DNA of 45,765 nt. Source: a virus. The DNA is taken from IMG/VR virus record IMGVR_UViG_3300036845_000176, positions 1-45,765 of that record; one strand, written 5' to 3'. Position 1 is the first letter of the stretch. The number at the start of each line of letters is the position of its first letter. The notes under the pieces were generated by a model. That model was not told the origin of the DNA. It did not search any database and worked only from the letters and a program-made list of their open reading frames with translations. Below, piece by piece: positions 1-28,263 of this stretch. The position numbers and the translations under genes are program-made.

Positions 1-127
1 GGGGGCGATCTCAGCCACGCCCGCGATAATCGACATCCCCTTGATCTTTCGCGGCTTCTTCAAAAATTTCGGCGGCTTTTCTGGAAAATCTCATGGTGCG
101 TTGTTCGGTTCTGCCTGATCCGTAACT
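1..127. repeat. Terminal direct repeat (circular closure)
   Basis: Bases 1-127 are identical to 45639-45765. A single exact repeat of 127 bases at the two ends of a contig is what a de Bruijn assembler leaves when it closes a circle with k=127. It is therefore more likely an assembly overlap than a biological terminal repeat. The genome should be read as a 45,638-bp circle, and the seam lies inside the non-coding region in front of the terminase genes. Confidence 0.95.
95..107 (+). promoter_or_regulatory. Late element copy 1, upstream of terS
   Basis: The sequence is GGTGCGTTGTTCG, a variant of the dispersed element GGTGCGTTGCTGG. The terS ATG at 135 is 40 bases downstream of its first base. 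There is no good Shine-Dalgarno sequence between the element and the ATG. Confidence 0.6.
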
Positions 128-134
128 TGTTAGC

Positions 135-674
135 ATGGACAAGACTGAGGGCGTTTCGACGATTCCTGATGCGGATGAGGCATCGATCGGGCCTGCTATG
201 CGGGCACTGACGCCGCCGCAGCGGCGATTTGCGATGGCGGCGGTGATGTACCCGCTGGCGAAGGACTGGCAGATCGCGAAGGCGGCCGGGTATTCGGACA
301 AGAGCCACGGCTCGCTGCGGGTGGCGGCTCATCGAAATTTCCATGACGAGAAGGTGCTGGCGGCGATCCGGGAGTGTGCGGACAAACAGATGCGCTCGAC
401 GTCCATGCTGGCGATGGCGGTGCTTGAGCGGATCGCCCGGACGCAGGGGCATAGGGACGAATTCAAGGCGGCAGCGCTGCTGGCGGGGCTGAACAGGTTC
501 ACGGTCGACCAGAACATCAATGTGAAGCAGACCGTCACGGACCAGAGCGGCAAAGCGATCATGGAACGAATTGAGCGGCTGGCGGCCAAGCATGGGCTTG
601 ATGCATCGAAGCTGCTTGGGAAGTCGGAGGCGCCGGTGGTGATCGACGCCGAATTTGAGGAAGTCGAGAAATGA
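135..674 (+). CDS. terS: Terminase small subunit
   Basis: A 179-residue protein directly upstream of the large terminase. It should recognise the packaging site on phage DNA and recruit the motor. Residues about 26-80 read like the helix-turn-helix half of terminase small subunits: a Pro-Pro-Gln-Arg-Arg-Phe stretch followed by an AKAAGYS-type turn and a basic helix. A helical oligomerisation segment and an acidic C-terminus follow. The stop overlaps the terL start (ATGA). It is the first gene after the putative packaging region and a late element at 95. Confidence 0.8.
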   Translation: MDKTEGVSTIPDADEASIGPAMRALTPPQRRFAMAAVMYPLAKDWQIAKAAGYSDKSHGSLRVAAHRNFHDEKVLAAIRECADKQMRSTSMLAMAVLERIARTQGHRDEFKAAALLAGLNRFTVDQNINVKQTVTDQSGKAIMERIERLAAKHGLDASKLLGKSEAPVVIDAEFEEVEK

Positions 675-2152
675 AATGCACGAGGCATGACGAGCCGGCC
701 GCCGGCTGTGACGAGTGCAGGCTGGCCCTGCTCGAGGAGTTGGAGGCGCTGGACTACCAGAAGACCTACCGGCGCCTGTTTCAGTTCGAGCCGTACCGCA
801 AGCAGCTTGATCATCTTGAGCTCGGCGCCACCAAGCGCGAGCGGCTGCTGATGGCAGGCAACCGTCTCGGCAAGTCGGAGACTGGCGCATTCGAGGCCGC
901 CCTGCATCTTACGGGCCGGTATCCGGACTGGTGGAAGGGCCGCCGGTTCGATACGCCGACCAAGGGCTGGATTTGCGGCGTGACGTCGCTCGACGTACGC
1001 AACGTGTGCCAGACCAAGCTGTGCGGCGCGTACGGCGTTCAGGAGGCCTACGGGACCGGGATGATCCCGAAGGAGGATCTGATCGATGTATCACTTGCCC
1101 GCGGCATCACCGATGCCTACGACACGATTCAGGTCCGGCATATCTCCGGCGGCATTTCCACGGCTGCGTTCAAGTCGTTCGAGCAGGGCCGCGAGAAGTT
1201 TCAGGGCGAGGGCTTGGACTGGATTTGGCTCGACGAGGAGCCGCCGATCACGATCTATGGCGAGGCGCTGACCCGTATTGGCGAGCGCGACGGCATCGCA
1301 TGGCTGACGTTTACGCCGCTGCTCGGTCGGTCGAAGGTCGTGAACCGCTTCCTGGATGAGCCGTCGGTCGACCGCGGTGTGACGACGATCACGCTTGACG
1401 AAGCGCCGCATATCGCGCCGGAAGCCAAACGGCGCATGCTCAGCGGCTATCTCACGCATGAACGTGAGGCGCGGGCGAAGGGTGTTCCGCTTCTGGGCGA
1501 AGGTGCGATTTTCATGTCGCCGGAGGATTCTGTCGTCGAGGCGCCGATCGACTACGTTCCGCCGCACTGGTTCAAGCTATGGGGCGTAGACTTCGGGATT
1601 AATCACCCGTTCGGCGCGGTGCTGATTGTGTGGGACAAGGATGCGGACGTAATCCACGTCCATCATTGCTACCGCGTGGCCGACGCGCTGCCGATCCAGC
1701 ACGTCGACGCGATCAAGCGCGTCGCAGGCGCCGTCCCGGTAGCATGGCCGAACGACGGCAACATCCGCCGCGATGACGGCAAGCCGATGGCCGAGCACTA
1801 CAAGCGCTACGGGGCGAAGATGTTGCCGACACACGCGACATGGCCCGACGGATCGATCTCGACCGAGGCCGGCATCCTCGAGATGGATGAACGCGAGAAG
1901 TCGGGCCGGCTGAAATACAGCCGCACGCTATCCGATCTGCTCGAGGAACGGCGGATGTACCACCGCAAGGACGGCCAGATCGTAAAGGATCGCGACGACC
2001 TGATGTCGGCGCTTCGTATCGCGATCATGATGAAGCGCTTCGCCAAGCAAGTCGGTCTTGGCCCCAGCGGCGGCGGCGTGGGCCCGGCCGGTAGTGGCGG
2101 CCCGGGCCCGATCGCCGACGGCACAGATTTCGACGTCTTCACCGGGCAGTGA
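671..2152 (+). CDS. terL: Terminase large subunit
   Basis: The packaging ATPase and nuclease that pumps DNA into the prohead through the portal. The 493-residue protein carries a Walker A-like GNRLGKSE (63-70), a Walker B strand LDWIWLDEE (182-190), a TFTP coupling motif (213-216) and a nuclease-domain start at VDFG (306-309) whose Asp is expected to bind metal. The N-terminus has C3, H6, C13 and C16, a possible small zinc knuckle in front of the motor. The C-terminus is Gly/Pro-rich. The start overlaps terS by four bases, implying coupled translation. Confidence 0.93.
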   Translation: MKCTRHDEPAAGCDECRLALLEELEALDYQKTYRRLFQFEPYRKQLDHLELGATKRERLLMAGNRLGKSETGAFEAALHLTGRYPDWWKGRRFDTPTKGWICGVTSLDVRNVCQTKLCGAYGVQEAYGTGMIPKEDLIDVSLARGITDAYDTIQVRHISGGISTAAFKSFEQGREKFQGEGLDWIWLDEEPPITIYGEALTRIGERDGIAWLTFTPLLGRSKVVNRFLDEPSVDRGVTTITLDEAPHIAPEAKRRMLSGYLTHEREARAKGVPLLGEGAIFMSPEDSVVEAPIDYVPPHWFKLWGVDFGINHPFGAVLIVWDKDADVIHVHHCYRVADALPIQHVDAIKRVAGAVPVAWPNDGNIRRDDGKPMAEHYKRYGAKMLPTHATWPDGSISTEAGILEMDEREKSGRLKYSRTLSDLLEERRMYHRKDGQIVKDRDDLMSALRIAIMMKRFAKQVGLGPSGGGVGPAGSGGPGPIADGTDFDVFTGQ

Positions 2153-2164
2153 GTGCGTTGCTGC
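2152..2164 (+). promoter_or_regulatory. Late element-like copy 2, at the end of terL
   Basis: The sequence AGTGCGTTGCTGC overlaps the last base of the terL stop codon. Thirty bases downstream stands CCGGGCATGA (ATG at 2182), the same context seen at copies 5 to 7. It may be a decayed or alternative copy, since a terminator follows at 2242. Confidence 0.4.
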
Positions 2165-2241
2165 TCGGGCTCGCCCCGGGCATGATCATCCCGCTCGGTG
2201 ATGCGAGTGCCCTCTCAAGGGGCGTTTCCTCCCTAGACTTG

Positions 2242-2273
2242 GCCCGCCCGGTGTCCTCCCGGGCGGGCTTTTT
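2242..2273 (+). terminator. Intrinsic terminator after terL
   Basis: A perfect 10-bp GC stem (2242-2251 with 2259-2268) and a 7-base loop are followed by five T residues. This is a strong rho-independent terminator that would stop transcripts from the terminase genes. A late element begins 8 bases after the T-run. Confidence 0.88.
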
Positions 2274-2280
2274 CAATGAT

Positions 2281-2293
2281 GGTGCGTTGCTGG
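2281..2293 (+). promoter_or_regulatory. Late element copy 3, after the terL terminator
   Basis: An exact GGTGCGTTGCTGG. It stands immediately after the terminator at 2242-2273 and before the 118-residue gene at 2353, which is where a promoter for the portal/scaffold genes would be needed. A 7-codon open frame (ATG 2333 to TGA 2356) lies downstream and ends on the ATG of the 2353 gene. Confidence 0.65.
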
Positions 2294-2352
2294 CATTCCG
2301 CGACCCGCCCACGTTCCGGCCAGCATCACGCCATGCACCGGAGACATGCCTC

Positions 2353-2709
2353 ATGACCGACGAAGATACGCAGCAATCCGCGCACGGACTGACCGTCGGT
2401 GATTTTGTGCCGCTCAGCGCCCTTAATGAACCCATCCCCGCCGCCGCTCGCCTGCGCGCATTCGAGGATACGCACCTCGGCCCCAATGCCCCGCGCGTCG
2501 CCGGTCTCCTCGAGCGCGGCCACGGCTCGCTCTACGTCCGCCTGACCGACGTGCAGCGCGCCGAGCATGCCGCACTCGAGCGATTGGTCAAGGCCGAGCA
2601 GGCCGTCGCCGACGCATCCGCGAAGCTGGCCGAGGCCGAAGCCGAGCACGGCAAGGCGCTTGTCGCGGCCGACGGCTTCAAGGCCGAGCCCGATGGCATT
2701 GCCGAATAG
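2353..2709 (+). CDS. Hypothetical protein with C-terminal coiled coil
   Basis: A 118-residue protein of unknown function. Residues about 75-110 are an Ala/Glu/Lys helix likely to form a coiled coil. The reading frame is open further upstream, but that would run through the terminator, so the ATG at 2353 is preferred. This ATG overlaps the stop of a short upstream frame (ATGA). It is followed with overlap by two more small genes before the portal, so a structural or assembly role is possible. Confidence 0.6.
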   Translation: MTDEDTQQSAHGLTVGDFVPLSALNEPIPAAARLRAFEDTHLGPNAPRVAGLLERGHGSLYVRLTDVQRAEHAALERLVKAEQAVADASAKLAEAEAEHGKALVAADGFKAEPDGIAE

Positions 2710-2902
2710 TCCCGCGCCGGTCGGCGCCGTTTCCGATCTCGGCCTCGGTGACATGCTCGGCCAGCAGGTCGCCGGCGAGACCGAGGAAGAACGCAAGCGA
2801 AGGATGGCGCAGATGCAGCAGCAACAGGCGCTGGGCCCGGCCGGTTCGCTGGCCGTGACGTCGCTGTTCGGGCCGAGAGGGGTGCCAGGTGCTGGCTATT
2901 GA
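2693..2902 (+). CDS. Small hypothetical protein upstream of portal
   Basis: A 69-residue protein whose start lies within the end of the previous gene. The middle holds a charged Glu/Arg/Lys segment followed by a Gln-rich run (about 40-50), and the C-terminus is Gly/Pro-rich. No family is recognised. Its placement in a tight string of overlapping genes leading to the portal supports it being real. Confidence 0.5.
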   Translation: MALPNSPAPVGAVSDLGLGDMLGQQVAGETEEERKRRMAQMQQQQALGPAGSLAVTSLFGPRGVPGAGY

Positions 2903-3341: not shown

Positions 3342-5070
3342 CGTTGTGCCGTACGCCGGCGATATGACCGTGCGGCGTCCGCGCGTCGTTTCCGAGCGCG
3401 AGACGGAGGTTGTCACCGGGATCTTGCGCGAATTCTCGCAATATCAGGTCCGCCGGTCGAACTTCGCCCTGCAATGGGAAGAAGTAGCCCAGTTGATCCT
3501 GCCGACCTCGAAGAACACGTTTTTCTTTCAAAGCTACAATTCACCGGGCCAGAAAAAGACCCAGCAGCAGGTCGATGCGTCCGGCGCGCTGGCGCTGCAT
3601 CGCTTCTGCGCGATCGCCGATTCCCTCGTCACCCCGCGCAACATGCAGTGGCACGGCCTCCAGGGCGACGATTACGTGATGAAGGACCGGGCCTGCCGGC
3701 TGTGGTTCGAGAACACCACCAAGCTGCTATTCCGCCAGCGCTATTCCGCCAACGCAAACTTTGCGGCGCAGAACTACAACAACTGGCAGTCGCTTGGCGC
3801 GTTCGGAAATTCGACCATGTTCGTCGACAAGTTCGACAACCGCTGGTCCGGCGGTATGCAGGGGCTGCGTTATAAATCCGTCCCGCTCGGCGAGACCTTC
3901 TTTGGTGAAAACCATCAGGGCAAGGTCGACCGCATGATCCGCTGGTTCCGGCTTACGCCATATCAGGCGGTGCAGAAATGGGGCATCGACCGGCTGCCTG
4001 AGAATCTGATGGGCCCGCTGCGGCAGGATAGCCAGTGGGGCTACAATTTCCTGCATTGCGTTCGGCCGCGCACCGATGACTACGATCCCGAGGCGATCGA
4101 CGAGCGGTCGCTGCCGTTCCAGTCCTTCTATGTCTCGATCGAGGGCCGCTGCCTGATGCAGCCCGAGAGCGGCTACCGCAAATTCCCCTTTGCCGTCTCG
4201 CGCTATGACCAGACGCCGGGCGAGGTCGAGGGTCGCGGCTGTGCGCAGATCGTGCTGCCCGCCCTCAAAACCCTGAACGCGCAGAAGGTCACCTTCCTCA
4301 AGCAAGGTCACCGCGCCGCGGATCCCGTGCTGCTGCTCAACGACGACGGTCTGGTCGGCATGGACATGCGGCCGGGCGCGCAGAACAAGGGCGGCGTCTC
4401 GGCCGACGGCAAGTTGCTGGTGCACACGCTGCCGACCGGCGACATCAAGATCAGCCTCGAAATGATGCAGGAGGAGCGCGGCATCGTTGATGACGTATTC
4501 CTCGTCTCGTTGTTCAAGGTCTTGTCCGAACACCCGAACATGACCGCGACGCAGGTCATCGAGCTCGTCAACGAGAAGGGTATGCTGGTAGCGCCGACGC
4601 TCGGCCGGCAGCATACCGAGTATGTCGGCGGGCTGGTCGAACGGGAGCTTGATCTGCTCGCCGACATGCGCATGCTCGACCCAATGCCGCCGCGACTGCG
4701 CGAGGCGATGGGCCACTACGAGGTCACCGATACCTCGCCGCTGTCGCTCGCCGCATCCGCCGGCAAGGCCGCGGGCTTCCTGCGCACGGTCGAACAGGTC
4801 CGCGAGCTCGTCAACGTCACCCAGGATCAGAGCCTGCTCGATCCCTTCGACTTCGGCACCGCGATCCCCGAGATCGCCCGCATCAACAACACGCCCGAAG
4901 CATGGATGGCCGATCCGCAGGCCATCGCCGCCAAGCAGAAAAACCGTGCGCAACAGATGGCGAAGCAGCAGGCCATTCAGGCTGCGCCGGCTCAAGCGGC
5001 AATAATAAAAGCAAGGGCGGTAGCGGCAAAAAGCGGCGCGCTCGAACAACCCCAAGGCGCGGGCGTCTGA
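3316..5070 (+). CDS. Portal (head-tail connector) protein
   Basis: A 584-residue T7 gp8-like portal that forms the dodecameric ring at the packaging vertex. It lies between terL and scaffold as expected. The N-terminal part has the conserved run with LPTSKN, the ALALHRFCAIADSLVTP helix and a GLQGDD segment. The C-terminus is a Gln/Ala-rich tail. The ATG at 3316 is chosen because GCAGGA precedes it. A longer start at 3286 and a shorter one at 3364 are possible. The stop shares a base with the next ATG (TGATG). Confidence 0.9.
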   Translation: MPNASSSTDVVPYAGDMTVRRPRVVSERETEVVTGILREFSQYQVRRSNFALQWEEVAQLILPTSKNTFFFQSYNSPGQKKTQQQVDASGALALHRFCAIADSLVTPRNMQWHGLQGDDYVMKDRACRLWFENTTKLLFRQRYSANANFAAQNYNNWQSLGAFGNSTMFVDKFDNRWSGGMQGLRYKSVPLGETFFGENHQGKVDRMIRWFRLTPYQAVQKWGIDRLPENLMGPLRQDSQWGYNFLHCVRPRTDDYDPEAIDERSLPFQSFYVSIEGRCLMQPESGYRKFPFAVSRYDQTPGEVEGRGCAQIVLPALKTLNAQKVTFLKQGHRAADPVLLLNDDGLVGMDMRPGAQNKGGVSADGKLLVHTLPTGDIKISLEMMQEERGIVDDVFLVSLFKVLSEHPNMTATQVIELVNEKGMLVAPTLGRQHTEYVGGLVERELDLLADMRMLDPMPPRLREAMGHYEVTDTSPLSLAASAGKAAGFLRTVEQVRELVNVTQDQSLLDPFDFGTAIPEIARINNTPEAWMADPQAIAAKQKNRAQQMAKQQAIQAAPAQAAIIKARAVAAKSGALEQPQGAGV

Positions 5071-5534
5071 TGGCTTTCTCATCGAAAGAAAAGCAGGCCG
5101 AATATAATCGCAGATACTACGCGAAAAACCGCGAAAAAATGCGCGAAGGCATGCGCTCGTGGCGTGCAAAAAACCTAGAGCAGCATCGGGCTAATTCGCG
5201 CAAATATCATCACGAGAACCGTGAATTGATACTGCCGAAGCAGCGCGCGCACAGGAAGGAAAATCCACACATCTACGCTCAGCGGCTTAGGCTCAGAAAG
5301 TTCGGGTTGTCGCACGCGGCATATCAGGAAATGCTGGAATCGCAGAACGGCAAGTGCGCGATATGTAAGACCACGGGGAAGCTGGTGGTCGATCATAATC
5401 ACCAGACAGACGCCGTTCGTTCTCTGCTCTGCAGCCCATGCAATACGGCCATCGGTCTCTTCAAGGAAGATACGGACCGCATGCGCGCGGCAATAAAATA
5501 TCTGGATGAGCAGCCCGGAGGCGGCCAGCTGTGA
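5070..5534 (+). CDS. HNH endonuclease, endonuclease VII family
   Basis: A 154-residue protein with a basic, Tyr/Arg/Asn-rich N-terminus (about 1-70) and an endonuclease VII-type core. CAIC and LLCSPCN hold zinc, and VDHNH (about 108-112) is the catalytic motif. Its codons are clearly more AT-rich than the flanking portal and Bbp19-like genes, and it is wedged between them with one-to-four-base overlaps. It looks like a free-standing homing-type endonuclease inserted in the head operon. A related gene lies at 29283-29645. A role in resolving branched DNA during packaging is the alternative. Confidence 0.88.
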   Translation: MAFSSKEKQAEYNRRYYAKNREKMREGMRSWRAKNLEQHRANSRKYHHENRELILPKQRAHRKENPHIYAQRLRLRKFGLSHAAYQEMLESQNGKCAICKTTGKLVVDHNHQTDAVRSLLCSPCNTAIGLFKEDTDRMRAAIKYLDEQPGGGQL

Positions 5535-5800: not shown

Positions 5801-5803
5801 GCC

Positions 5804-7023: not shown

Positions 7024-7027
7024 TCCC

Positions 7028-7040
7028 GGTGCGTTGAAGG
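7028..7040 (+). promoter_or_regulatory. Late element copy 4, upstream of major capsid
   Basis: The sequence GGTGCGTTGAAGG begins four bases after the stop of the Cys-rich gene. An ATG lies 30 bases downstream (7058) but opens only a 20-codon frame. The capsid gene starts at 7219. The leader between them holds three imperfect CCCCGCAAGG/CAAGGC repeats. Confidence 0.55.
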
Positions 7041-7078
7041 AATCCTCGGGCACGGTCATGTTCCGCGCCCAGAGACCC

Positions 7079-7190
7079 GAGTGTCCGGTCCCCGCAAGGG
7101 CAAGGCCGGTTCGGCAGTGACGGCCCCCGCAAGGACAAGGCTGAAAGTTTGATGGCCCCCGCGCGCATTCGCATGGGCAAGGCCGCCGAC
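7079..7190 (+). repeat. Imperfect repeats in the capsid gene leader
   Basis: Two close copies of CCCCGCAAGGnCAAGGCnG (near 7090 and 7123) and a looser third (near 7158) lie in the 195-base gap before the major capsid gene. No gene is supported here. They may give structure to the capsid mRNA leader. Confidence 0.4.
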
Positions 7191-7218
7191 GTTCAACCCC
7201 TTTTCAGGCGGGATAGCC

Positions 7219-8139
7219 ATGTCCGAGAACCTCTCGAAACTCTTCACGACCCAATTTTCCGACATCCTGGTGCTCAAGCTCCAGCAGACGCAATCGATGC
7301 TGCGCGGCACCGTGATGGAGGGCAGCCACGTCGGCAAGCAGGCGTCGCCGATCCAGTACGCGGGCTCGGTGCAGATGAAAACGCCGGCCGGCCGTTTCGC
7401 GCCGATCAACCGGCAGGACATCGACTTCACCCGGCGCTGGGTGGTTCCGATCGACAAGGATGCACAGCAGCTCGTCGACAGCTTTGACAAGCTCAAGACC
7501 GCGATCGATCCGACCTCGCAGGAAACCGCTGCGGCAGCCGCGGCCGTCGCACGCGAATGGGATGACCGCATCATCGCCGCCGCCTTCGCCACCGCCCTGC
7601 TCGGCGACGGCAACGCGCCCAACGCCTTCACCACCGAGACCTTCGACACCACCAAATGGCAGGTTGCCTCGACCTTCGGCTCGTCCGCGGCGTCGGGCCT
7701 CACCGTCGCCAAGATGATCGAAGCCAAGCGCATCCTGCGCAAGGCACAGGTCCCGCAGGAAGAGGCCAAGACGTGGATCACCAACAGCCAGGGCGAATCC
7801 GATCTGCTCAATCAGGTGCAGGTGGTCTCGACCGAGTTCAACGACCGTCCGGTGCTGACCGACGGCGTGGTGTCACGCTTCCTCGGCTTCGACATCAAGT
7901 ATTCGGAGCGCCTGAATTCGTCGTCCAACCTGCGCCAGAACATGGCCTACGTGAAGTCCGGCATGTATCTCGGCATCTGGAAGGACATGCAGAACGACGT
8001 CCGCGAGCGCGCCGATATCACCGGCATTCCGTGGCAGATTTACACCCTGATGTCGTCCGGCTCGACCCGGCTTGAGCCCGGCAGGCTGCTGCAGGTGCTC
8101 TGTTCGGACACCTCGGCCGCCGCCGACGTGACCCCGTAA
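7219..8139 (+). CDS. Major capsid protein
   Basis: A 306-residue HK97-fold capsid protein that builds the icosahedral shell. It resembles the major capsid family of BPP-1-like podoviruses: an N-terminal helical arm, then RWVVPIDKDAQQLVDSFDKLKTAIDPTS, a central A-domain with KMIEAKRILRKAQVP, and FLGFDIKYSERL near the C-terminus. It follows scaffold and precedes small capsid-associated genes, the usual order. Confidence 0.88.
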   Translation: MSENLSKLFTTQFSDILVLKLQQTQSMLRGTVMEGSHVGKQASPIQYAGSVQMKTPAGRFAPINRQDIDFTRRWVVPIDKDAQQLVDSFDKLKTAIDPTSQETAAAAAAVAREWDDRIIAAAFATALLGDGNAPNAFTTETFDTTKWQVASTFGSSAASGLTVAKMIEAKRILRKAQVPQEEAKTWITNSQGESDLLNQVQVVSTEFNDRPVLTDGVVSRFLGFDIKYSERLNSSSNLRQNMAYVKSGMYLGIWKDMQNDVRERADITGIPWQIYTLMSSGSTRLEPGRLLQVLCSDTSAAADVTP

Positions 8140-8149
8140 GGAGTTCGAC

Positions 8150-8374: not shown

Positions 8375-8386
8375 CAGGAGCAACCC

Positions 8387-8953: not shown

Positions 8954-8956
8954 CCG

Positions 8957-9194: not shown

Positions 9195-9213
9195 GCAAGA
9201 GAGGCTGTGACGC

Positions 9214-9605: not shown

Positions 9606-9608
9606 ATC

Positions 9609-11026: not shown

Positions 11027-13605
11027 TGACTGTAGGACTCCTTTCGTTTGCGGTCCCGCCCTTCGGCTTCAACGGCGGCAAGCTCCAGGTTCAATCCGAC
11101 TTCCTTCAGAACGGCGGAGACTTCCCCTTTGTAAATCTTCTGCTCGGAGCGCAGTCGTGGTCGTTCGCTGACAATTCAGGATGGCCTTCGCCGAATGTTC
11201 TTGACCCGACTACTGGCTTGCCGACGTCCATTTCAAATGGAGGCGTGTCTACGGTCTTTCAGATTCCGGCTCAGTCCGATCGAAGCGGCAACTACTATGT
11301 CATCACCACTGGCAAGGGAACGATATCGAGCACCGGCCTTACTTCAACGGCTGTTAATGGCACCAATGTCCAAACGCTGATCTCTGGAGCAGCGCTGGGA
11401 AGCAATACGCAGATAACGTTTAACATCACCGCCACGGACGCCACGACACCCATCACCAAGGTTGCCTTCGTTCACAATCAAGACGTTTCAGCCTATCTTG
11501 CTGACAATCTTGCTTTCGGCGGCAAATTCATTCCGATCCTCCAGCAATTGAAGCCGGGGGTCATTCGATTCCTGAATTGGCAAAACGGCAACCTGACCAA
11601 CGAGACTACGTGGTCATCGCGCAAGCCTCAGACTCACTGGTCATTTGCATCTCAGTATTTCCCAACACAGAAAACCGATTCCGTTCTCGGCTGTCAGGTC
11701 GGATATCTCGGCTCGACGACCAGCACCCTCAATGATTATGTGGTATCTGACAGCGGCGGCACCGCCGCCCCCGTCGACAAGCAGACCGTCATGGTAAACT
11801 TCGATGCAGCGGCAGTCACCGTTACTAGCGGCGCGAATGCTCAGATATCTTGGACCGGCCACGGGCTTTCAACCGGAAGCCCATTCATGCTGTTTACGAC
11901 GGTTGCTGGATCGGTTCCAGGCGGCCTGACGCTCTATCCGAGCGGCGCAGGCGGAGCGGTGATCTTCTACGCGATCTTCGTCGATGCCAACACCGTCCAG
12001 TTTGCAACGACCTATGCCAACGCGATTGCTAACACCGCGATCACCACCAGCAGCACTGGCAGCGGTGTTCTCGCGCATGCAACCGTCGTCAATTCGGCTG
12101 TAACAATCACGGTCTCGACATCGAACGTCGCATGGGCAAATCACGGCCTTTCAACCGGCGATCCGATCGGGTTCGGTGGAAACAACCCATGTGGCAACGT
12201 CTCACTGGGCATCAATTACTATGCGATCGTTATCGATGCTAACAACATCAACATCGCCACCTCGCGCGCCAACGCGCTTAGTTCAACCAAGGTTACCTTC
12301 ACCGGGAGTGCTGGCGGCGGTGTAATCGCCTGTCGTTTGCCGACACTCAGCCTGAACGGTACCGGCGCGGTGCCCATCAGGGCGTCTGGTGGTCAAATCA
12401 TGACCATCAATGGCAACTCAATGCCGTTGGCGAGGGCCTTTCAGAACCATATCGTTCAGGGCGCTCTGACCTACGATGCAGCATTGAATAGCTGGATCAA
12501 GGCTGGAGGCGATGCAGCCGATGGAAATATCGGCATCAGGGGCAATGTGCCACCGGAGATTTGTCTCAAGCTTTGCACATTGATCGGAGCGCATCCCTAT
12601 TTCGTATCCGGCTATTTGATGCTCGATCCGATGACGGATTACATGCCGTCGTTGATGACATATTGCCAGAACAACGCGCCCTCATGGATGATTCCGAGGT
12701 TCGAAGCCTACAATGAGAATTGGAACAACGTCACTCCAGGGTCGAACTACGCGCAGTTCAAAGCTTTCGCGAACTGGGGCGTGCAGGAATTTCCCGCCCA
12801 CAACTGGGTAGGGAAAACTTGTTCAACTCTGGGGCAAGCTGCCGCCAACGTCTGGTCCGGTGGAAAAGGTACCAAGTATCATGTGCTGGTAGGCGTGCAA
12901 ACACCTGGTATTGTTGACGCCTCATCTGCTTCGCAAAGCAACAATCGACTTGTAGCCGCACAATACACGGCGCAGGCAGCGGCTGCGCAATCGCCCTACA
13001 CCAAAACCGCGGCCTATCAATGGTGCACGCATGTCTGCTGTGCTCAATACCTCACGCCAACACTTTACGGCACGACGAGCGGCAACCCGAATGAATCGTC
13101 GATGGCTTCAACGTGGGCTGCTAACGGTAGCCTGCCGAACGACGCGCTACTCACCACCTATGTAGACTCAATCACTGGAGCGGCTGCAAACTTTAATCTT
13201 GCGCAGCTACAAACGAACTACTCCGCGATCTTCGCATGGGCGCAGGGTGCTGGTGTTTCAGGGGGATGGGCTGGATCATATAAGCTAGGGATGTGCGGCT
13301 ATGAGGGCGGTTACTCGCCTAGTTTGTTCGCCAGCACAACTCAAATCTACAATTTTCGAGTCGCAACCAAGTTCGGGGCCGATGTCGGTATAGGTCTGAA
13401 CGGTGGCACACTCGTAAATGGCTCCACGGTAGCCGGAGCCCTGAACGACTTCATCAGCGCAGGCGGCGTGTTTCCATCCTGCTTCCAGCTTGCGGGCGGC
13501 ACAGGGACGGGAAGCGGCAACGCGTGGAGCGTTCTGGACCCGACAATCTATCTCAGCCCGCAGCCCGCTCAATGGACCGCGCTGGTGGCGTTCAGCAATA
13601 CTTAA
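11026..13605 (+). CDS. Large glycosidase-like tail protein (possible depolymerase)
   Basis: An 859-residue protein starting at GTG 11026, which overlaps the previous TAG and has GGGGG upstream (GTG 11014 is an alternative). Residues about 165-215 and 455-855 read like a TIM-barrel glycoside hydrolase. YNENWN (near E564) fits a clan A acid/base, and MCGYEGGYSPS (near E760) fits a nucleophile. Two copies of a roughly 90-residue beta domain (NHGLSTGDPI...YYAIVID) are inserted at about 265-440. It probably binds and cuts host surface sugar. It ends tail-to-tail with the antisense methyltransferase, the two TAA stops sharing TTAA. Confidence 0.6.
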   Translation: MTVGLLSFAVPPFGFNGGKLQVQSDFLQNGGDFPFVNLLLGAQSWSFADNSGWPSPNVLDPTTGLPTSISNGGVSTVFQIPAQSDRSGNYYVITTGKGTISSTGLTSTAVNGTNVQTLISGAALGSNTQITFNITATDATTPITKVAFVHNQDVSAYLADNLAFGGKFIPILQQLKPGVIRFLNWQNGNLTNETTWSSRKPQTHWSFASQYFPTQKTDSVLGCQVGYLGSTTSTLNDYVVSDSGGTAAPVDKQTVMVNFDAAAVTVTSGANAQISWTGHGLSTGSPFMLFTTVAGSVPGGLTLYPSGAGGAVIFYAIFVDANTVQFATTYANAIANTAITTSSTGSGVLAHATVVNSAVTITVSTSNVAWANHGLSTGDPIGFGGNNPCGNVSLGINYYAIVIDANNINIATSRANALSSTKVTFTGSAGGGVIACRLPTLSLNGTGAVPIRASGGQIMTINGNSMPLARAFQNHIVQGALTYDAALNSWIKAGGDAADGNIGIRGNVPPEICLKLCTLIGAHPYFVSGYLMLDPMTDYMPSLMTYCQNNAPSWMIPRFEAYNENWNNVTPGSNYAQFKAFANWGVQEFPAHNWVGKTCSTLGQAAANVWSGGKGTKYHVLVGVQTPGIVDASSASQSNNRLVAAQYTAQAAAAQSPYTKTAAYQWCTHVCCAQYLTPTLYGTTSGNPNESSMASTWAANGSLPNDALLTTYVDSITGAAANFNLAQLQTNYSAIFAWAQGAGVSGGWAGSYKLGMCGYEGGYSPSLFASTTQIYNFRVATKFGADVGIGLNGGTLVNGSTVAGALNDFISAGGVFPSCFQLAGGTGTGSGNAWSVLDPTIYLSPQPAQWTALVAFSNT

Positions 13606-14453
13606 AGATTAGCGGCAGTGAGAAACTTGAAATGGTCGCCGATTGCCAGTTCCTTGCGATCTCGCGGTTCTTGCCGCGCCGGATGGTCGAGAATATGGCA
13701 AACATGCATGGCGCTATACCAGTGAGCGGCAGAAACCGGTCTGCGTCCCGGCAAACTGCGATCATTGCCGATCTTGCGCATCTCGTTTTCTGAATTGAAC
13801 TCGTCGATAGCGGCGAGTTCACCACACCACTGGTTGGCAAAGAAGAAATTCACGTCGTCAAAATACATGCTGACGGCTGGAACGTATTTGTCCGGCGAAC
13901 TTGTGAGGCAGCGCAACCCGGCTCTGGTGGCCGAATAGATATCTACGTCAACAGAGACAAAGCCGAGCGGGGATGACGGGTCGATCGAGGCGGTAAAAGG
14001 TCCGATGGTCTTCTCGATATCACCCCAGATGATCTCGGCGCGCCCATCGATTTTATTCAAGAGAACGTCTCGGTTCTCCATGGTGAAGTCGCCGGGGTTC
14101 CAGAGTTCGGGATGATCTTTGTGGCCCTGAATTGAGGGAAGGCCGGCGCCCGTATCGAAGCCAACGATGCGGAAAGTGACGCCGGTCTCTCGGGTGATCT
14201 GCTCGGCGCAGTCGATCATGTTGAGCAGCCCGCGACCGCTTGCCACGCCCATTTCGACAACGGTGACGGATTTCTTGCCAAAATATTTCGCGTTATCGGC
14301 AGCGCGGAGCATTCCATAGAGGTAGTACGGGCGACTGATTAGCCCGTAGCTCTCTTGGGTTCTGAAATCGCCGGTCTTTCTGATCCACGCTTCTTCGCCG
14401 AAAGCCTGCTTGTAAAGCTTGCGCTTAATTCTGGTGGCCAGTCCATCTTTCAT
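13602..14453 (-). CDS. SAM-dependent methyltransferase (cargo gene)
   Basis: A 283-residue class I methyltransferase: VEMGVASGRG (66-75) is the SAM-binding loop, FD (99-100) the acidic end of strand 2, and VDVD (168-171) and MYFDD (196-200) follow. This resembles TylF/macrocin-type O-methyltransferases acting on sugars. It is antisense to the whole late block, with its own GAGGGG ribosome site and lower GC, so it looks like a cargo gene that could be expressed in the prophage. Methylating a host surface sugar, hence blocking superinfection or altering the receptor, is an inference. Confidence 0.75.
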   Translation of the reverse strand: MKDGLATRIKRKLYKQAFGEEAWIRKTGDFRTQESYGLISRPYYLYGMLRAADNAKYFGKKSVTVVEMGVASGRGLLNMIDCAEQITRETGVTFRIVGFDTGAGLPSIQGHKDHPELWNPGDFTMENRDVLLNKIDGRAEIIWGDIEKTIGPFTASIDPSSPLGFVSVDVDIYSATRAGLRCLTSSPDKYVPAVSMYFDDVNFFFANQWCGELAAIDEFNSENEMRKIGNDRSLPGRRPVSAAHWYSAMHVCHILDHPARQEPRDRKELAIGDHFKFLTAANL

Positions 14454-14579: not shown

Positions 14580-14592
14580 GGTGCGTTGCTGG
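14580..14592 (+). promoter_or_regulatory. Late element copy 5, before tail tubular A-like gene
   Basis: An exact GGTGCGTTGCTGG. The ATG at 14621 is 41 bases downstream and directly preceded by CGTCCGGGC, with no Shine-Dalgarno sequence. The element lies upstream of the 5' end of the antisense methyltransferase gene, where late transcription would need restarting. Confidence 0.68.
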
Positions 14593-14620
14593 CCTGACCG
14601 CCCGCCCGCATCGTCCGGGC

Positions 14621-15925
14621 ATGACGGCATACAGGGCCCCCGTTGATATCGCCAATCGCGCGCTGCAGCATTGCGGAGCGGGCCGGATCGCCACGCCCGA
14701 TTTCAGCGAGATCAGCCGCAACTGCGCCGAAATCTCGTTCTGCTACGACAAGTTGCGTGAGGCTGAGCTGCAAAGCCGAAACTGGACCTTTGCGATCCGC
14801 CACCAGATCCTGCGCGCGATCGACGTCAACACGATGCTGCTCAAGCCGTCGCTGTGGTCGCCGGTCACGACCTATTTCGTCGGGTCGATCGTCGCCGACG
14901 CCCAGGGCAGCCTGTGGATATCGGAAATCCCCAATAACACCAACAACGACCCGCTGCTGACGTCGTTCTGGGCGCCGTATTTCGGCCCGCGCGCGGCCCC
15001 GCTCTACGATGCCAGCGGGACCACGGCCTATTCGGCGGGCGAGCTCGTCTACACCACGCCGGGCGACGGCACCAACCGGGTCTACCTGTCGCTGCAATCG
15101 GCCAATTCCGACGTGCCTTCGGCGGCCACGGCCTACGATCCGACCGTCACCTATTTCAGGAATCAGGTCGTGACGCTTTCGAGCGTCGCTTACATGAGCC
15201 TGATCGACCTCAACCTCAACCAGTTGCCGAACCTCGCGCCGGCGCTGTGGGCGGCCGGCACTACCTACGCGGCCGGCAACAAGGTCGGCGGCTCCGACGG
15301 CATGATCTACCAGTCGGTCGGCTCGGGAAATCTCGGCAACGATCCGACGATCGACGGCGACGTGCACTGGACCAACACCAACGTACTCAATCCGTGGACC
15401 ACGGTGTTCGTCGGCGGCAGCGGTTCGGTCAAATGGCTCCAGATCGGCGGCACCGAATTTCCGGCCGGCGTCACACTGGCCACGCTCAACATCGTCTATC
15501 CGCCCGGTGCCGGCCCATCGACGCAATCGTTCTCCGCCAACGTGTTCATGCTGCCGGCCGGCTTCCTGCGCAAGGCGCCGCAGAACCCGAAGCCGGGCAT
15601 GCCGTGGCTCGGCGGCCCGAGCGGGGTCGATTATGACGACTGGCTGATCGAGGGCCGATACCTCATCACATCCGACAGCGGCCCGATTGCACTGCGCTTC
15701 GTCGCCAACATGACCGACGTGTCGAAGATGCACACGATGTTCTGCGAGGGCCTGTCGCTGCGCATCGGCCTCGAGGTGTGCTCGATCCTCACCCAGTCCG
15801 ACGCCAAGATGAAATCGATCGCCGAAAAATACAAAAAATGGATGGGCGACGCCCGGACGATCGACGGCATCGAGGACGGCTTCACCGATTCCCCCGACGA
15901 CGAATACATAGCCGTGAGGCGCTAG
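14621..15925 (+). CDS. Tail tubular protein A-like adaptor with sugar-binding inserts
   Basis: A 434-residue protein. Residues 1-70 and the C-terminal 100 match T7 gp11-type adaptors that join portal to nozzle (DIANRALQHCGAGRI, CYDKLREAELQSRNW). The middle (about 77-252) holds four modules of the pattern Y-x-x-G-x-x-V...Y/W...NP...W that resemble small chitin-binding (CBM5/12) modules. Typical adaptors are about 200 residues, so the insert doubles the size. It starts 41 bases after a late element without a Shine-Dalgarno sequence. Confidence 0.75.
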   Translation: MTAYRAPVDIANRALQHCGAGRIATPDFSEISRNCAEISFCYDKLREAELQSRNWTFAIRHQILRAIDVNTMLLKPSLWSPVTTYFVGSIVADAQGSLWISEIPNNTNNDPLLTSFWAPYFGPRAAPLYDASGTTAYSAGELVYTTPGDGTNRVYLSLQSANSDVPSAATAYDPTVTYFRNQVVTLSSVAYMSLIDLNLNQLPNLAPALWAAGTTYAAGNKVGGSDGMIYQSVGSGNLGNDPTIDGDVHWTNTNVLNPWTTVFVGGSGSVKWLQIGGTEFPAGVTLATLNIVYPPGAGPSTQSFSANVFMLPAGFLRKAPQNPKPGMPWLGGPSGVDYDDWLIEGRYLITSDSGPIALRFVANMTDVSKMHTMFCEGLSLRIGLEVCSILTQSDAKMKSIAEKYKKWMGDARTIDGIEDGFTDSPDDEYIAVRR

Positions 15926-15928
15926 CCT

Positions 15929-19243: not shown

Positions 19244-19246
19244 TCC

Positions 19247-19753: not shown

Positions 19754-19761
19754 GACGCGCG

Positions 19762-21435: not shown

Positions 21436-22931
21436 GCACGACCGACGACTGGATCGACGTGCCGCCGCTGGCATCGCCGAAAGCGGATGACGGATGGATC
21501 GATGTGCCAAAGGCTGGTGCACCAGTTCCCGCGCCGCCGATCTCCGGAGCGGACAAGGCCATTCCCTACTGGGTCCAGAACCCGACCATCACTCCGGAAG
21601 AGAAGCCGCTTGCAAATGGATATTTCAGTAACATCCTGAAGCAGTTCGGCCAGGACTTCGGGCAGGCGTGGGGACCGGAAAAGCTCGGCCTGTCCGATGA
21701 GAGCATGAACCGGATCAAGGCCGCTGGCATACCCCTGCCGAGCGACAAGGACAATGATCCGCGCGGGACGAACGGATTTGTCGTCGTCAATGCGGCGGCG
21801 GCGCTGGACGCAGCGATGCGGACGTTCCCGGCGTTCTATCACGGCATGCAGGGCGCCATTAATGCCGCGCTTGGCGACACGAGATTAAGTCGCGATATCG
21901 TCAGCATCCCCGACGCCTTCATGGGTTCGCCGGGAACGCTTGGAAAAATCACACTGCGGCCCGGCTTGCCGAAGGATGACGTTCCCCCAGGAAGTCCGCC
22001 GCCGCCACCCGCGTTGGCCGAGCCGCTCGCAAAATGGTCAGAGGAAATCGATACGCGCGTCAAGTCGGCAATGGAAAGCATGCCGCAAGAGGTTGGCGAG
22101 AAGTTCCGCGCTGACATCAAGGAGCTTGATGAGCTTCTAGCCAAGCCGCAATCCGAAACGACGGTAGAGATCAACGGAGAATCTACCACTCAACGCACGC
22201 CATTGAGTGGGGCCGATACCGATCGCGTCACGGAGCTAAAGGATAATATCCGGCAGACGTTGGAAGATCACGGCTATACCGAGCCACCGAATCCGGTTGT
22301 CGAGGCCGTGAAAGACGGCAAAGACCTTGGCGTCATCGGCCCGGAAAGGTCATCGATCAATGAGGGAACGCCGCAGGAAGTCGCCGAACGTTCCGCGCGC
22401 GGCGCCGATGAGGCCGCCCAAAAGCCAAAGGAATCGGTGCCTGGCGTCGATGGATGGCAAGCGCGCTTCGATCACTTCGTCGGCAGGATCGACAAGCCAG
22501 CGGATATCAAAAAACTGATCCACGATGCGGCGACCGAGAACGACAATTTCCCGGCGGCACGGCAGGGCAAGATTCCGGCGATGGATGTCAGCGACATTGC
22601 TGACGCGACCGGGCTCGACCCGAGCGAGATCAATGCCAAGAAGCTTGGGCAGGCGCTTCCAACGGACCAGCATGTCCGTTTCGCCATGCGCGCGATGATC
22701 ACGGCAACCGAGAACGTGAAGGCTGCCGCGCGCGACGTTGTGTCGGATGCATCAGAGGCAAATCTGATCAAGTTTCAGGAGCACATTCTGCGCCGGGATA
22801 TGATGGTCGAGCAGGTCGTCGGACTGCGCTCGCAATGGGGCCGCGTCGGCAACGTTTTTCAGGAGTTCATGCGCGAGGTCAAGGACGGCCAAGCCCTTGA
22901 TAGCTTCATCAAAGAGAGTTGTCCGCTATGA
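21432..22931 (+). CDS. Internal virion protein, gp16-like, N-terminal part
   Basis: A 499-residue protein starting with a repeated acidic motif (DDWIDVPPLASPKADDGWIDVP) seen at the N-terminus of large ejected proteins. A Pro-rich linker (about 178-196) and long helices follow. It ends abruptly in ...ALDSFIKESCPL. The next gene starts in another frame on the same ATGA and continues what reads like one domain series, so the two may be halves of a single large internal protein. Confidence 0.6.
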   Translation: MSTTDDWIDVPPLASPKADDGWIDVPKAGAPVPAPPISGADKAIPYWVQNPTITPEEKPLANGYFSNILKQFGQDFGQAWGPEKLGLSDESMNRIKAAGIPLPSDKDNDPRGTNGFVVVNAAAALDAAMRTFPAFYHGMQGAINAALGDTRLSRDIVSIPDAFMGSPGTLGKITLRPGLPKDDVPPGSPPPPPALAEPLAKWSEEIDTRVKSAMESMPQEVGEKFRADIKELDELLAKPQSETTVEINGESTTQRTPLSGADTDRVTELKDNIRQTLEDHGYTEPPNPVVEAVKDGKDLGVIGPERSSINEGTPQEVAERSARGADEAAQKPKESVPGVDGWQARFDHFVGRIDKPADIKKLIHDAATENDNFPAARQGKIPAMDVSDIADATGLDPSEINAKKLGQALPTDQHVRFAMRAMITATENVKAAARDVVSDASEANLIKFQEHILRRDMMVEQVVGLRSQWGRVGNVFQEFMREVKDGQALDSFIKESCPL

Positions 22932-24901: not shown

Positions 24902-24910
24902 CTGGCCTCT

Positions 24911-24923
24911 GGTGCGTTGCTGG
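24911..24923 (+). promoter_or_regulatory. Late element copy 6, before first signal-peptide tail gene
   Basis: An exact GGTGCGTTGCTGG. The ATG at 24951 is 40 bases downstream, directly preceded by CTCCCGGC and without a Shine-Dalgarno sequence. It lies 10 bases after the stop of the internal virion protein. Confidence 0.68.
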
Positions 24924-24950
24924 TGCGGGCGGCTCGTCCATCCTCCCGGC

Positions 24951-26171
24951 ATGAAACACGCACGGATAGCCCTCGCAGGCCTGCTGCTCGCCCTCTCGCC
25001 CGCCGCCGCGCAGGTCTACCTCCCGCCCGGGGTCGGCTTGCCGCCGCAAAGTGTGATCGGCAACACCCTGCCGCAGGCTGGCGACGCGGTTGCCGTGTCG
25101 TTCGCCCAACTCAAGGCGACGCTGAACATCCCGGCGATCCAATCCTGCTCGACCAGCAACTGGTTCAATTCGCTGACGGCCGGCGGCACGTTCGGATGCT
25201 CCCAGCCATCGCTGTCGGACATCAGTGGATTCGGGGCCAATGTCGTCACCTTCCTGGGCGCCCCGACCAGCGCGAATCTGGCAGCGGCGCTGACCGATGA
25301 AACCGGCACCGGGCTGGTCGTGTTCTCCAATTCGCCGACGCTGGTTACGCCCATACTTGGCACCCCGTCATCGCTCACCCTGACCAACGCAACCGGGCTG
25401 CCGCTGGCCAGCGTCACCGGACTGGGCAGCGGGGTTGCGACGGCGCTAGGCGTCAACGTCGGCACCGCCGGATCGCCGGTGGTCAATGGCGGCGCCGGGG
25501 GAACGCCGTCGGCCATCGTATTGACGAACGGCACCGGCACCGCCGCCGGATTGACGGCCGGCACCTTCACCGCCGGCAGCGCGGCAAACCTGACCTCGGG
25601 CACGCTGCTGGCTGCCCGGATGCCCGCCCTGACCGGCGATGTCACGATGGGCGTCGGCACCACCGCAACCACGCTCGCGGCCGGCAACGCAGGTAATCTG
25701 AACTCCGGTACGCTCCTGCCCGCCCGCACCAACGGGCACATGAGCGGCACGGCGACCAATGACAATGCGGCAGCCGGCGAAGTTGGCGAATACATCGAAT
25801 CCATTCTCGCCTCTGGTTCCGCAACATCCCTTACCACCACCACCGCCAAAACTATCGTCAGCCTCTCGCTCACCGCTGGTGATTGGGAGGTGTCCTGTGC
25901 GGTATCGTTCCTGCCCGCCGCCACGACCAGCGTTACGCAGATGGCGACCTCCGTATCGTTAGTGACCAACACCAGTGACTTTACAAACGGCAGGGTGAAC
26001 ACCATTTCTACAGCCGCTCAGGTCCCCGGAATTTCCACCACTGCGCTGCCAACCATGCCGCTGCGCTTCAGTTTCGCCAGCACGACTTCCGTCTTCTGTG
26101 TTGGCTTTGCAACCTTCACCGTCAGCACCATGACAGCTTACGGCGCTATCAAGGCGCGGCGAGTCCGCTGA
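24951..26171 (+). CDS. Tail fibre-like protein with N-terminal signal peptide
   Basis: A 406-residue protein. Residues 1-20 form a classical Sec signal (basic MKHAR, hydrophobic IALAGLLLAL, AAA cleavage before QVYLPP). A low-complexity fibre shaft follows (repeats of the type LVTPILGTPSSLTLTNATGLPL and GNAGNLNSGTLLPAR) with a beta-rich C-terminal domain of about 100 residues holding two Cys. The shaft repeats are those of phage tail fibres. An export signal on a virion protein is odd, because assembly is cytoplasmic. The start follows a late element. Confidence 0.68.
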   Translation: MKHARIALAGLLLALSPAAAQVYLPPGVGLPPQSVIGNTLPQAGDAVAVSFAQLKATLNIPAIQSCSTSNWFNSLTAGGTFGCSQPSLSDISGFGANVVTFLGAPTSANLAAALTDETGTGLVVFSNSPTLVTPILGTPSSLTLTNATGLPLASVTGLGSGVATALGVNVGTAGSPVVNGGAGGTPSAIVLTNGTGTAAGLTAGTFTAGSAANLTSGTLLAARMPALTGDVTMGVGTTATTLAAGNAGNLNSGTLLPARTNGHMSGTATNDNAAAGEVGEYIESILASGSATSLTTTTAKTIVSLSLTAGDWEVSCAVSFLPAATTSVTQMATSVSLVTNTSDFTNGRVNTISTAAQVPGISTTALPTMPLRFSFASTTSVFCVGFATFTVSTMTAYGAIKARRVR

Positions 26172-26176
26172 CTGAC

Positions 26177-26189
26177 GGTGCGTTGCTGG
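26177..26189 (+). promoter_or_regulatory. Late element copy 7, before tailspike gene
   Basis: GGTGCGTTGCTGG, exact, with the ATG at 26218 lying 41 bases downstream and directly preceded by CGTCCGGGC. It begins six bases after the stop of the previous fibre gene. Confidence 0.68.
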
Positions 26190-26217
26190 GGATTCCCGGC
26201 AACCGCACCGTCCGGGC

Positions 26218-28044
26218 ATGAAACAGGCTTCCCGCGCCCTCGCATTCCTCGCCGCGTTCCTGCCTGCCATGGCCGCCGCGCAACAATTCCCCACCGTCCC
26301 GTCCGGGACCGTGATCGGCCGCACCCGGATCGGAGCCGGCCCCGCGCAGGCGATCCCGATCAGCCAGCTTCTTTCGGCGGTGCTGGGCGGTTCGATCAGC
26401 GTCCCGTCGGTCAACACCAATTCGGTGGTCTATCGGGGATCGACCAGCGGCCAGGCCACGGTCTCGGCGCAGGCGGTAGCCGGGACGCCAACCCTCAAGC
26501 TGCCGACCACGACCGGAACGCTGGCGTCCGCCGCAACCGCACCGATTGCGCTCGATTCCGTCACCGGCACGATCTCCTGCTCGAGCTGCCTGTCGGTCGC
26601 AAACGCCACCCCGGTGCTGACATCGCGCGCATTCGCCCTGACGCAGAACCTGTCCGCGATCGCATCAATCCAGACCCTCGGCTATGCGGCGGGCGGCGAT
26701 GGCGGCGGGGCTGTATTCAAGAACGTCGGATCGACCGCGTTCCTCGATTCCTTCATCACGTCGTTCGCCATCACCGGCGGCTCCGGCTACACCAACGGCA
26801 GCTACTTTGGCGTCGTGCTGGTCAACACGACGAAGCCGTACGCAATCGGCACGGCAACCGTTTCCGGCGGCGTCGTCACGGCGGTTAACGTCGCGGGCAC
26901 GCCGGGCGGTTCCTGCAATGTTGGCGACGTGTACACCACGGGGTCCATCCCCGGCGGCAGCGGTTTTATTATCACGGTGACCGGCTGTTCTGCGCCGCTA
27001 GGCAGTTTCACGGATAGCGTCGGCACGCACTGGCAAATCGTATCCAGCGGCGCCTTCCCGAATATTTTGCAGTTCGGCGCCAAGCCCGATTGGGCCGGAA
27101 CTGACGCCAGCGCGACGGACAATTTCAACGCGATCCAGGCCGGGCTCTGGTTCACGAGCTACATGAACCAGCTCAACGCCGGCGGCGGTGGCTATTGGGG
27201 CGGTAGGCTGTGGGTGCCGCAGGGCTCATTCCTGGCGTGTGGCACGGGCTCGGCGTCGCTGATCGTGCCGAGTGGAGTGGCATTCGAAGGCGCGAGCAAC
27301 CAGGGCTCCGTGATCCGGATGTGCGATGCGTTCTCGACATCCACGCATTTCATAACGCTGTGCGACAGCAACTGGCACTTTGCCTGCTTCAATTCAATCC
27401 TGCGCAACATCCAGATTTCAGCGCGCATCAGCGTCACAGCCGGCGGCAGCACCTACATGGTGTATTCGCGATCGACGCAGGATTTTGGCGGCCTCTACAA
27501 TGTCTACATCTACGCCGGTGGCCGGGGCGGCTTCTGGTTCGAGAAGGGCGACGGCGGAGCCTCTACGTTTATTATCGACGGGCTTAGCGTGTCGGCGGCA
27601 TCTCCGCTCGCCATGGTGAAGATTGGCGATACGGTCGGGTCAGGCCTTAACGTCGGCACCACGGCCGTCACGATTCACAATCTAGTGCTCGGCGGTCCCT
27701 CGAGCGGGGGTACCTATCAGACCGGTGACGGTCTGCTGCTTTTTGGCGGCTTCTCCTCTGTCGAAAATGTCCATTGCGAGGAGATGATCATTTGCATTCA
27801 CGTCGCTATTCCGTCCAGCACCGGCAACGGAGACATCGTGCGTATTCACAATGTGAACGCGGCTTCGGGTGCGCCGGCACCGGCTTGCACGGGTGCAATT
27901 TTTCTCGACGCCACCAACAACCCGGGGAACACGATCATCGGTCAGGTGCCGGCGGGTAGCTGCTCGAACGTGGTAGCCAATAGCCAGTCCGGCGGATCGA
28001 GCCGCGGCACGGCGATCACCACCGATCTGACGTTCAACCCGTGA
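26218..28044 (+). CDS. Tailspike-like beta-helix protein with signal peptide
   Basis: A 608-residue protein. Residues 1-21 again read as a Sec signal (MKQASRALAFLAAFLPAMAAA before QQFP). A short fibre region leads to FPNILQFGAKPDWAGTDASATDNFNAIQAG (about 280-310), the entry motif of pectate-lyase-type right-handed beta helices used by tailspikes that bind or cut polysaccharide. Strand repeats and several Cys follow. Catalytic residues cannot be named from sequence alone. The N-terminal signal and element parallel those of the preceding gene. Confidence 0.7.
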   Translation: MKQASRALAFLAAFLPAMAAAQQFPTVPSGTVIGRTRIGAGPAQAIPISQLLSAVLGGSISVPSVNTNSVVYRGSTSGQATVSAQAVAGTPTLKLPTTTGTLASAATAPIALDSVTGTISCSSCLSVANATPVLTSRAFALTQNLSAIASIQTLGYAAGGDGGGAVFKNVGSTAFLDSFITSFAITGGSGYTNGSYFGVVLVNTTKPYAIGTATVSGGVVTAVNVAGTPGGSCNVGDVYTTGSIPGGSGFIITVTGCSAPLGSFTDSVGTHWQIVSSGAFPNILQFGAKPDWAGTDASATDNFNAIQAGLWFTSYMNQLNAGGGGYWGGRLWVPQGSFLACGTGSASLIVPSGVAFEGASNQGSVIRMCDAFSTSTHFITLCDSNWHFACFNSILRNIQISARISVTAGGSTYMVYSRSTQDFGGLYNVYIYAGGRGGFWFEKGDGGASTFIIDGLSVSAASPLAMVKIGDTVGSGLNVGTTAVTIHNLVLGGPSSGGTYQTGDGLLLFGGFSSVENVHCEEMIICIHVAIPSSTGNGDIVRIHNVNAASGAPAPACTGAIFLDATNNPGNTIIGQVPAGSCSNVVANSQSGGSSRGTAITTDLTFNP

Positions 28045-28058
28045 GGTTCACAGCGTCC

Positions 28059-28148
28059 CTAATCGAATCGCGCGACCAGCATGACGGTCCCGATGGCTGC
28101 GGCAGCGACGAGCACGATCATCACCGCAAATAGTAATTCATTCAGCAT
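28059..28148 (-). CDS. 29-residue single-span membrane peptide, antisense
   Basis: On the minus strand, an ATG at 28148 with a perfect GGAGGT ribosome site four bases upstream opens a 29-codon frame. It encodes one hydrophobic helix (LLFAVMIVLVAAAAIGTVMLV) with an Arg-Phe-Asp end. It sits in the otherwise empty gap between tailspike and lysis genes, antisense to late transcription. The very good ribosome site and clean membrane span support it as real. It could be a prophage-expressed membrane peptide, but function is unknown. Confidence 0.55.
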   Translation of the reverse strand: MLNELLFAVMIVLVAAAAIGTVMLVARFD

Positions 28149-28210
28149 GGGTACCTCCGCGCGAAGGCGGCGACCCTACCCCGCAACCTGACCGCGAGCA
28201 AGCCGCCTGC

Positions 28211-28223
28211 GGTGCGTTGCTGA
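28211..28223 (+). promoter_or_regulatory. Late element copy 8, before lysis genes
   Basis: The sequence GGTGCGTTGCTGA stands before the endolysin gene. An ATG lies 29 bases downstream (28240), but the endolysin more likely starts at 28264 behind GGAGG. The sequence AACCGTCCATG resembles the conserved CCGTCCGGGCATG of other copies. Confidence 0.6.
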
Positions 28224-28263
28224 CCTGCCGCAACCGTCCATGGTCTCCGAAACGGAGGCCGAT

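Follow-up and report, generated by a model that had tools for sequence, protein, structure and literature searches.

A 13-bp word is dispersed through the window (the whole stretch of DNA analysed here, 45,765 nt) and forms the upstream part of a bipartite element, in which GGTGCGTTGCTGG is followed after 15-17 nt by YANNNT. The element stands ahead of nearly all structural gene blocks in this temperate phage and in dozens of its uncultured relatives. The 13-mer is probably the -35-region half of a late promoter for host RNA polymerase with a sigma70-type factor, activated by a phage protein. The identity of the element as a promoter appears well supported by the sequence comparisons described below, from which we also infer transcription, its late timing, the start sites and the identity of the activator. 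The original prediction had offered three readings of the 13-mer. A late promoter or activator site used by the host polymerase has been upheld, given the sigma70-like distance of the -10 box, the conservation of the element at equivalent gene borders of relatives and the TTGACA-type promoters at the capsid border of distant ones; an mRNA leader element and a mosaic linker have been set aside.

The circular phage genome is complete at 45,638 bases, the first and last 127 bases of the window being identical. The phage is temperate, judging from the integrase gene at 32964-34061. The labels terS, terL, portal and capsid given earlier to its genes are borne out by PHROGs, Pfam and tblastn, and those of the tail gene (phrog_394 tail protein), the fibre gene at 24951 and the lysis gene (GH108 endolysin) also hold. 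Two tail fibre genes had been claimed; the first is confirmed, and the gene at 26218 has no family match. A search for the host via the capsid in bacterial genome contigs gave no match. Capsids that are 30-40% identical are present in the bacterial class of a Novosphingobium match.

Eight plus-strand copies of the 13-mer had been listed, and all of them stand at their given positions, with exact matches at 2281, 14580, 24911 and 26177, one mismatch at 28211 and two at 95, 2152 and 7028. The firm core common to the copies is GTGCGTTG, which occurs 9 times on the plus strand and twice on the minus strand of the 45,638-base circle; the circle was used for counting, and the copy at 45733 is a repeat of that at 95 in the 127-base terminal overlap. 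Two copies had escaped the earlier reading, one at 45030 on the plus strand and one at 44978-44966 on the minus strand, as had the -10 box, the leaderless arrangement and a small RNA. The enrichment that it expected is present, with 9 plus-strand copies of GTGCGTTG vs a mean of 0.98 and a maximum of 4 in 200 dinucleotide shuffles, from all of which the exact 13-mer is absent. With 3 mismatches allowed, the enrichment is gone (30 matches vs 21.8 expected), so that exact matching of the core is required. By the gene starts used here, all 9 plus-strand copies of the core are noncoding, and noncoding sequence accounts for 4.3% of positions 1-28300. The 2152 copy overlaps coding sequence only at the final base of the terL stop codon. 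No known match to the element was found in a limited literature search.

When the window copies are aligned, a second conserved block, CAYNNTYCCGG, appears after 15-17 bases, often with an ATG next. A weight matrix trained on relatives only scores nine window sites above 16 bits, the best score in 20 shuffled genomes being 11.6. At several of these sites the start codon follows the -10 box closely. The plus-strand terS promoter (95-128, 16.1 bits) consists of GGTGCGTTGTTCG (95-107) and the -10 box TAACTT (123-128), with ATG at 135. The tail tubular A-like promoter (14580-14614, plus, 33.3 bits) has the 13-mer at 14580-14592, CATCGT at 14609-14614 and ATG at 14621, and the first fibre promoter (24911-24944, plus, 30.7 bits) has the 13-mer at 24911-24923, CATCCT at 24939-24944 and ATG at 24951. 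The second fibre-like promoter (26177-26211, plus, 32.1 bits) is built likewise, from the 13-mer at 26177-26189, CACCGT at 26206-26211 and ATG at 26218. At terS, at the tail gene and at both fibre genes the ATG comes 6 nt after the -10 box, so that their late mRNAs are predicted to be leaderless; no GGAG is found between the -10 box and the ATG of these genes. In S. meliloti, 171 leaderless mRNAs have been described (PMC3616915).

At the portal block, the capsid gene and lysis the start codon lies further off. The portal-block promoter (2281-2315, plus, 32.5 bits) comprises the 13-mer at 2281-2293 and CACGTT at 2310-2315, with the first ATG at 2353. The capsid promoter (7028-7062, plus, 26.5 bits), with GGTGCGTTGAAGG at 7028-7040 and CATGTT at 7057-7062, would give a leader of ~150 nt before ATG 7219. 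This leader (7069-7218, plus) contains repeated hairpins of the form GGCCCC-loop-GG-AYAM-GGCC, which are conserved even in relatives whose capsids are 45% identical; across 20 units 94% of the cells are paired, the covariation score is matched by 4/500 shuffles, and the hairpins have no Rfam match. The lysis promoter (28211-28244, plus, 25.4 bits) has GGTGCGTTGCTGA at 28211-28223, CATGGT at 28239-28244 and a predicted start at ~28251. Since GGAGG and ATG 28264 come after this predicted transcript start, the endolysin probably starts at 28264 and not at 28240. On the minus strand, the promoter of a small helix-turn-helix gene, gene B1 (44944-44978, 20.6 bits), has GGTGCGTTGATCT at 44978-44966, CACGTT at 44949-44944 and ATG at 44936, and is predicted to be leaderless. 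An inverted repeat, GTTCACG-TT-CGTGAAC (44937-44952), spans its -10 box and is perhaps an operator. The extra core copy at 45030-45042 (plus, GGTGCGTTGATAG) lacks a good -10 box and was rejected as a real promoter, its matrix score of 10.6 bits being at noise level; it may be a remnant of a promoter that in G035 and similar relatives drives gene B2.

The spacing of the two boxes was evaluated in 59 sites from 17 MCP-related contigs, which were found by the 8-mer alone with the second box unused; contigs found by the two-box pattern were excluded from these statistics. Of these sites, which at homologous borders are not independent of one another, 51/59 carry NANNNT 28-30 nt downstream of the start of the 13-mer and 44/59 carry YANNNT, and three-offset windows away from the -10 box hold 0-9 matches. 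An ATG is present at offset 40-43 in 29 of the 59 and 5-7 nt past the -10 box in 25. This is the geometry of sigma70 promoters, in which the -35 box begins with the TTG of the 13-mer and a spacer of 16-18 nt leads to a -10 box with A2 and T6, an arrangement found in 51/59 sites. The -10 boxes are poor (CATCGT and alike), and some of the 59 sites have no YANNNT. As for the -35 box, TTGACA is not kept and only its TTG remains (TTGCTG, TTGTTC, TTGAAG); scans of the window with the canonical sigma70 consensus gave matches at shuffle level. A shared word that overlaps or replaces the -35 box at several late promoters is present, as at activator-dependent late promoters. Sigma54 promoters have GG and GC 12 positions apart (TGGCAC-N5-TTGC), and in GGTGCGTTGCTGG the two are 8 apart.

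Relatives were taken from IMG/VR by their MCP, and further ones were found by the two-box pattern. GTGCGTTGCTG occurs in 27/36 records, on a single strand per contig throughout, and the reversed-word control gives zero. The conservation at gene borders on which the original prediction had staked its reading is found at the homologous capsid and tail genes, the element standing at -183 to -255 before the relatives' capsid gene and at -38 to -42 before the homologous tail gene in 22/23 contigs (gene identity at least 54%), with -47 in the remaining contig. In G007 the core has changed in concert to GTACGTTG at all 7 sites, which read GTACGTTGCTGT, and G009 has the same core, as GTACGTTGC. Such a concerted change would be expected if one factor reads all the sites, and it argues against a linker. 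Distant relatives that do not have the word carry a TTGACA-type promoter in much the same position before the capsid gene in three lineages (G015/L023 at -222, L028 at -202 and L159 at -206), a score that is reached by 28/958 control windows.

These observations bear on the strongest rival, namely a sigma70 promoter of the host whose -35 box is unusual and which works unaided by a phage factor, so that lateness, if any, would come from replication or lost repression. The geometry and the A2 and T6 of the -10 box are sigma70-like, TTG is the best-kept part of the -35 boxes, TTGACA-type promoters occupy the capsid border of distant relatives, and in S. meliloti a motif class attributed to RpoD has a conserved TTG and little else (PMC3616915). 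However, the upstream GTGCG varies hardly more than TTG, the copies in one genome drift together in their core, the flanks follow a phage gene (gene A, below) and not the capsid, and the element is not repeated in the sampled bacterial genomes; such a promoter therefore seems unlikely, if still worth keeping in mind. With regard to the host itself, a regulon was rejected, the two-box pattern having 22 taxonomically scattered matches in all GTDB contigs, as by chance, and so was a host promoter family, with 14 scattered single matches, as by chance, in 385 genomes of the class of the Novosphingobium match.

A phage-activated promoter calls for an activator, and the stretch that separates the early block from terS holds regulator-like genes. 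Gene A (44240-44770, plus) is the final gene of the early block and encodes a 176-aa HTH-like protein; gene B1 (44733-44936, minus) encodes a 67-aa helix-turn-helix protein under the minus-strand copy of the element. All of the examined contigs that bear the motif and span the region contain gene A, and 0/6 distant relatives without the motif do. Five genomes, spread over three capsid clades, have a type-2 gene A, and the flank C-GGTGCG is found at 21/21 of their sites vs 10/39 sites elsewhere. With the flank variants, gene A gave a Mantel rho of 0.33 (p 0.02) and the capsid one of 0.00, in a comparison of 12 related genomes made after the data had been seen. Gene A was chosen as the candidate activator because the flank variants track it and not the capsid, and we tentatively regard it as the likeliest one. 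Its AlphaFold model has helices in HTH-like order at a moderate pLDDT of 71, which lends weak support to the HTH assignment. A Foldseek search with the model yielded no significant match, gene A has no PHROG or Pfam family that would name it a regulator, and a PDB profile search with genes A and B1 gave no significant match.

The slot after gene A is occupied in most genomes by gene B1 (minus, HTH) or gene B2 (plus), usually with its own promoter copy, and minus-strand copies before gene B1 are also seen in G005, G006, G027, G030, G034 and G040. Gene B1 or B2 could be the factor instead of gene A; as a universal factor both were rejected, since each is present in only part of the motif-bearing genomes. 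In relatives, gene B1 is followed by a gene for a small CxxC...CxxC zinc-ribbon protein that is absent from the window (minus strand; G005 13445-13648, G027 29569-29799, G030 22598-22798, G034 7898-8089 and G040 189-422).

In the phage-activated promoter that we favour, the holoenzyme would read a weak -10 box that is mostly CANNNT and follows the TTG hexamer after 16-18 nt, with GTGCGTTGCTGG standing in for TTGACA. A phage protein, for which gene A would be the likeliest source, probably binds GTGCGTTGCTGG at about -41 to -29 and recruits sigma70, in the manner of other phage activators of this kind. The transcript would start ~7 nt below the -10 box, a position that at terS, the tail gene and the fibre genes is the A of the ATG. 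The same promoters would drive the portal block, the capsid gene and lysis as well as the sRNA and the small HTH gene.

The 13-mer could also be the -35 box of a sigma factor encoded by the phage, which we consider very improbable. A long, fixed -35-like word 16-18 nt from the second box would suit such a factor, phage genes of unassigned function remain, and one relative of B1 gave a very weak match to a phage sigma family (E 0.023). On the other hand, no sigma factor was recognised among the proteins scanned, and the A and T of the -10 box are placed as sigma70-type factors need; the -10 boxes of ECF factors differ from this placement. The earlier statement that no phage RNA polymerase is visible agrees with the PHROGs matches of the large ORFs scanned, none of which is such an enzyme.

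Less probable still is a role for the 13-mer as an RNA leader element in translation or processing. This would fit the 13-mers that lie ~41 nt before several start codons. Nevertheless, the distance to the start codon varies at the capsid, portal and lysis genes and that to the -10 box is fixed, the element is upstream of the predicted start with the start codon often at +1, and a terminator ends just upstream of 2281, which requires a new RNA start at that point. Least probable of all, and rejected here, is a recombination linker at mosaic borders, which would account for every copy being at gene borders but not for the concerted core change in G007 and G009, the fixed distance of the second box or an orientation that is always that of the downstream gene, including the minus copy facing gene B1.

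The terminator upstream of 2281, which had been noted before and is confirmed, is included in an RF00519 match and seems to belong to a phage-borne sRNA of the mmgR/suhB family (2193-2276, plus), between terL and the portal block. The match (2202-2282) is full length, at 51.7 bits vs a gathering threshold of 41, which places the RNA in the family. The fold has a z of -3.2, and the terminator stem (2241-2269) is followed by a T run. The 2152 copy is predicted to drive this sRNA from a start at ~2193; its promoter (2152-2186, plus, 23.3 bits) consists of AGTGCGTTGCTGC (2152-2164) and CATGAT (2181-2186). Like other members of the family, the sRNA has a 5' hairpin, a single-stranded UUUCCUCCCUAGACUU core and a terminator hairpin; unlike them, it is phage-encoded and lies under a phage late promoter between terL and the portal block. 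The same double arrangement of an sRNA promoter and a following copy is found in G035, and other relatives have a CCTCCCT core and hairpin directly before the GGAG of the next gene. The CCUCCCU core is kept at the terL/portal border in L019, G007, G009, G002, G011 and L021. This promoter-borne copy of mmgR constitutes a concrete case of a phage sRNA from a host family.

The phage activators P2 Ogr, Mu C, lambda CII and T4 MotA act on sigma70 promoters whose -35 box is poor. The window phage resembles these systems in its dispersed promoters, with an activator word at or near -35 and a -10 box, and in having no recognisable phage RNA polymerase; it differs from them in the word itself and in the leaderless arrangement predicted at many sites. 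No Ogr-like or Mu C-like protein was recognised among the window genes scanned. GafY/GafA, a phage-derived activator of alphaproteobacterial gene transfer agents, controls its own operon and many promoters, and GafY acts at degenerate -35 boxes through RpoD (PMC11150451). Together with IHF, GafY binds at a site far upstream, for which a consensus was hard to define (PMC11150451), whereas the word of the window phage is tight and overlaps the -35 box. The HTVC010P-type pelagiphages (Ubiqueviridae), whose capsids are 31-36% identical to that of the window, have no RNA polymerase and reportedly rely on the host polymerase and two regulators (PMC10504331). These phages are marine, whereas the window phage is temperate and GC-rich, and their late promoters are not described in that study (PMC10504331).

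A complete switch in which gene A, as an unclassified HTH-like protein, redirects the host polymerase to a 13-bp replacement of the -35 box, the late mRNAs are leaderless and the mmgR sRNA alters host gene expression late in infection is a possible but rather doubtful combination, and would be an undescribed phage late-gene switch. With the promoter word, its -10 partner, the predicted starts and the candidate activator, late control in this lineage becomes open to direct tests, and in uncultured relatives the word marks late operons and allows start codons to be corrected. Elsewhere in the window, an endonuclease VII-like gene lies inside the portal block (4902-5534), and a 67-nt stretch at 29423-29489 is 70% alike. 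A predicted repressor gene is flanked by a 37-nt inverted repeat (40577-40613 and 41024-41060), the two arms of which are 84% complementary.
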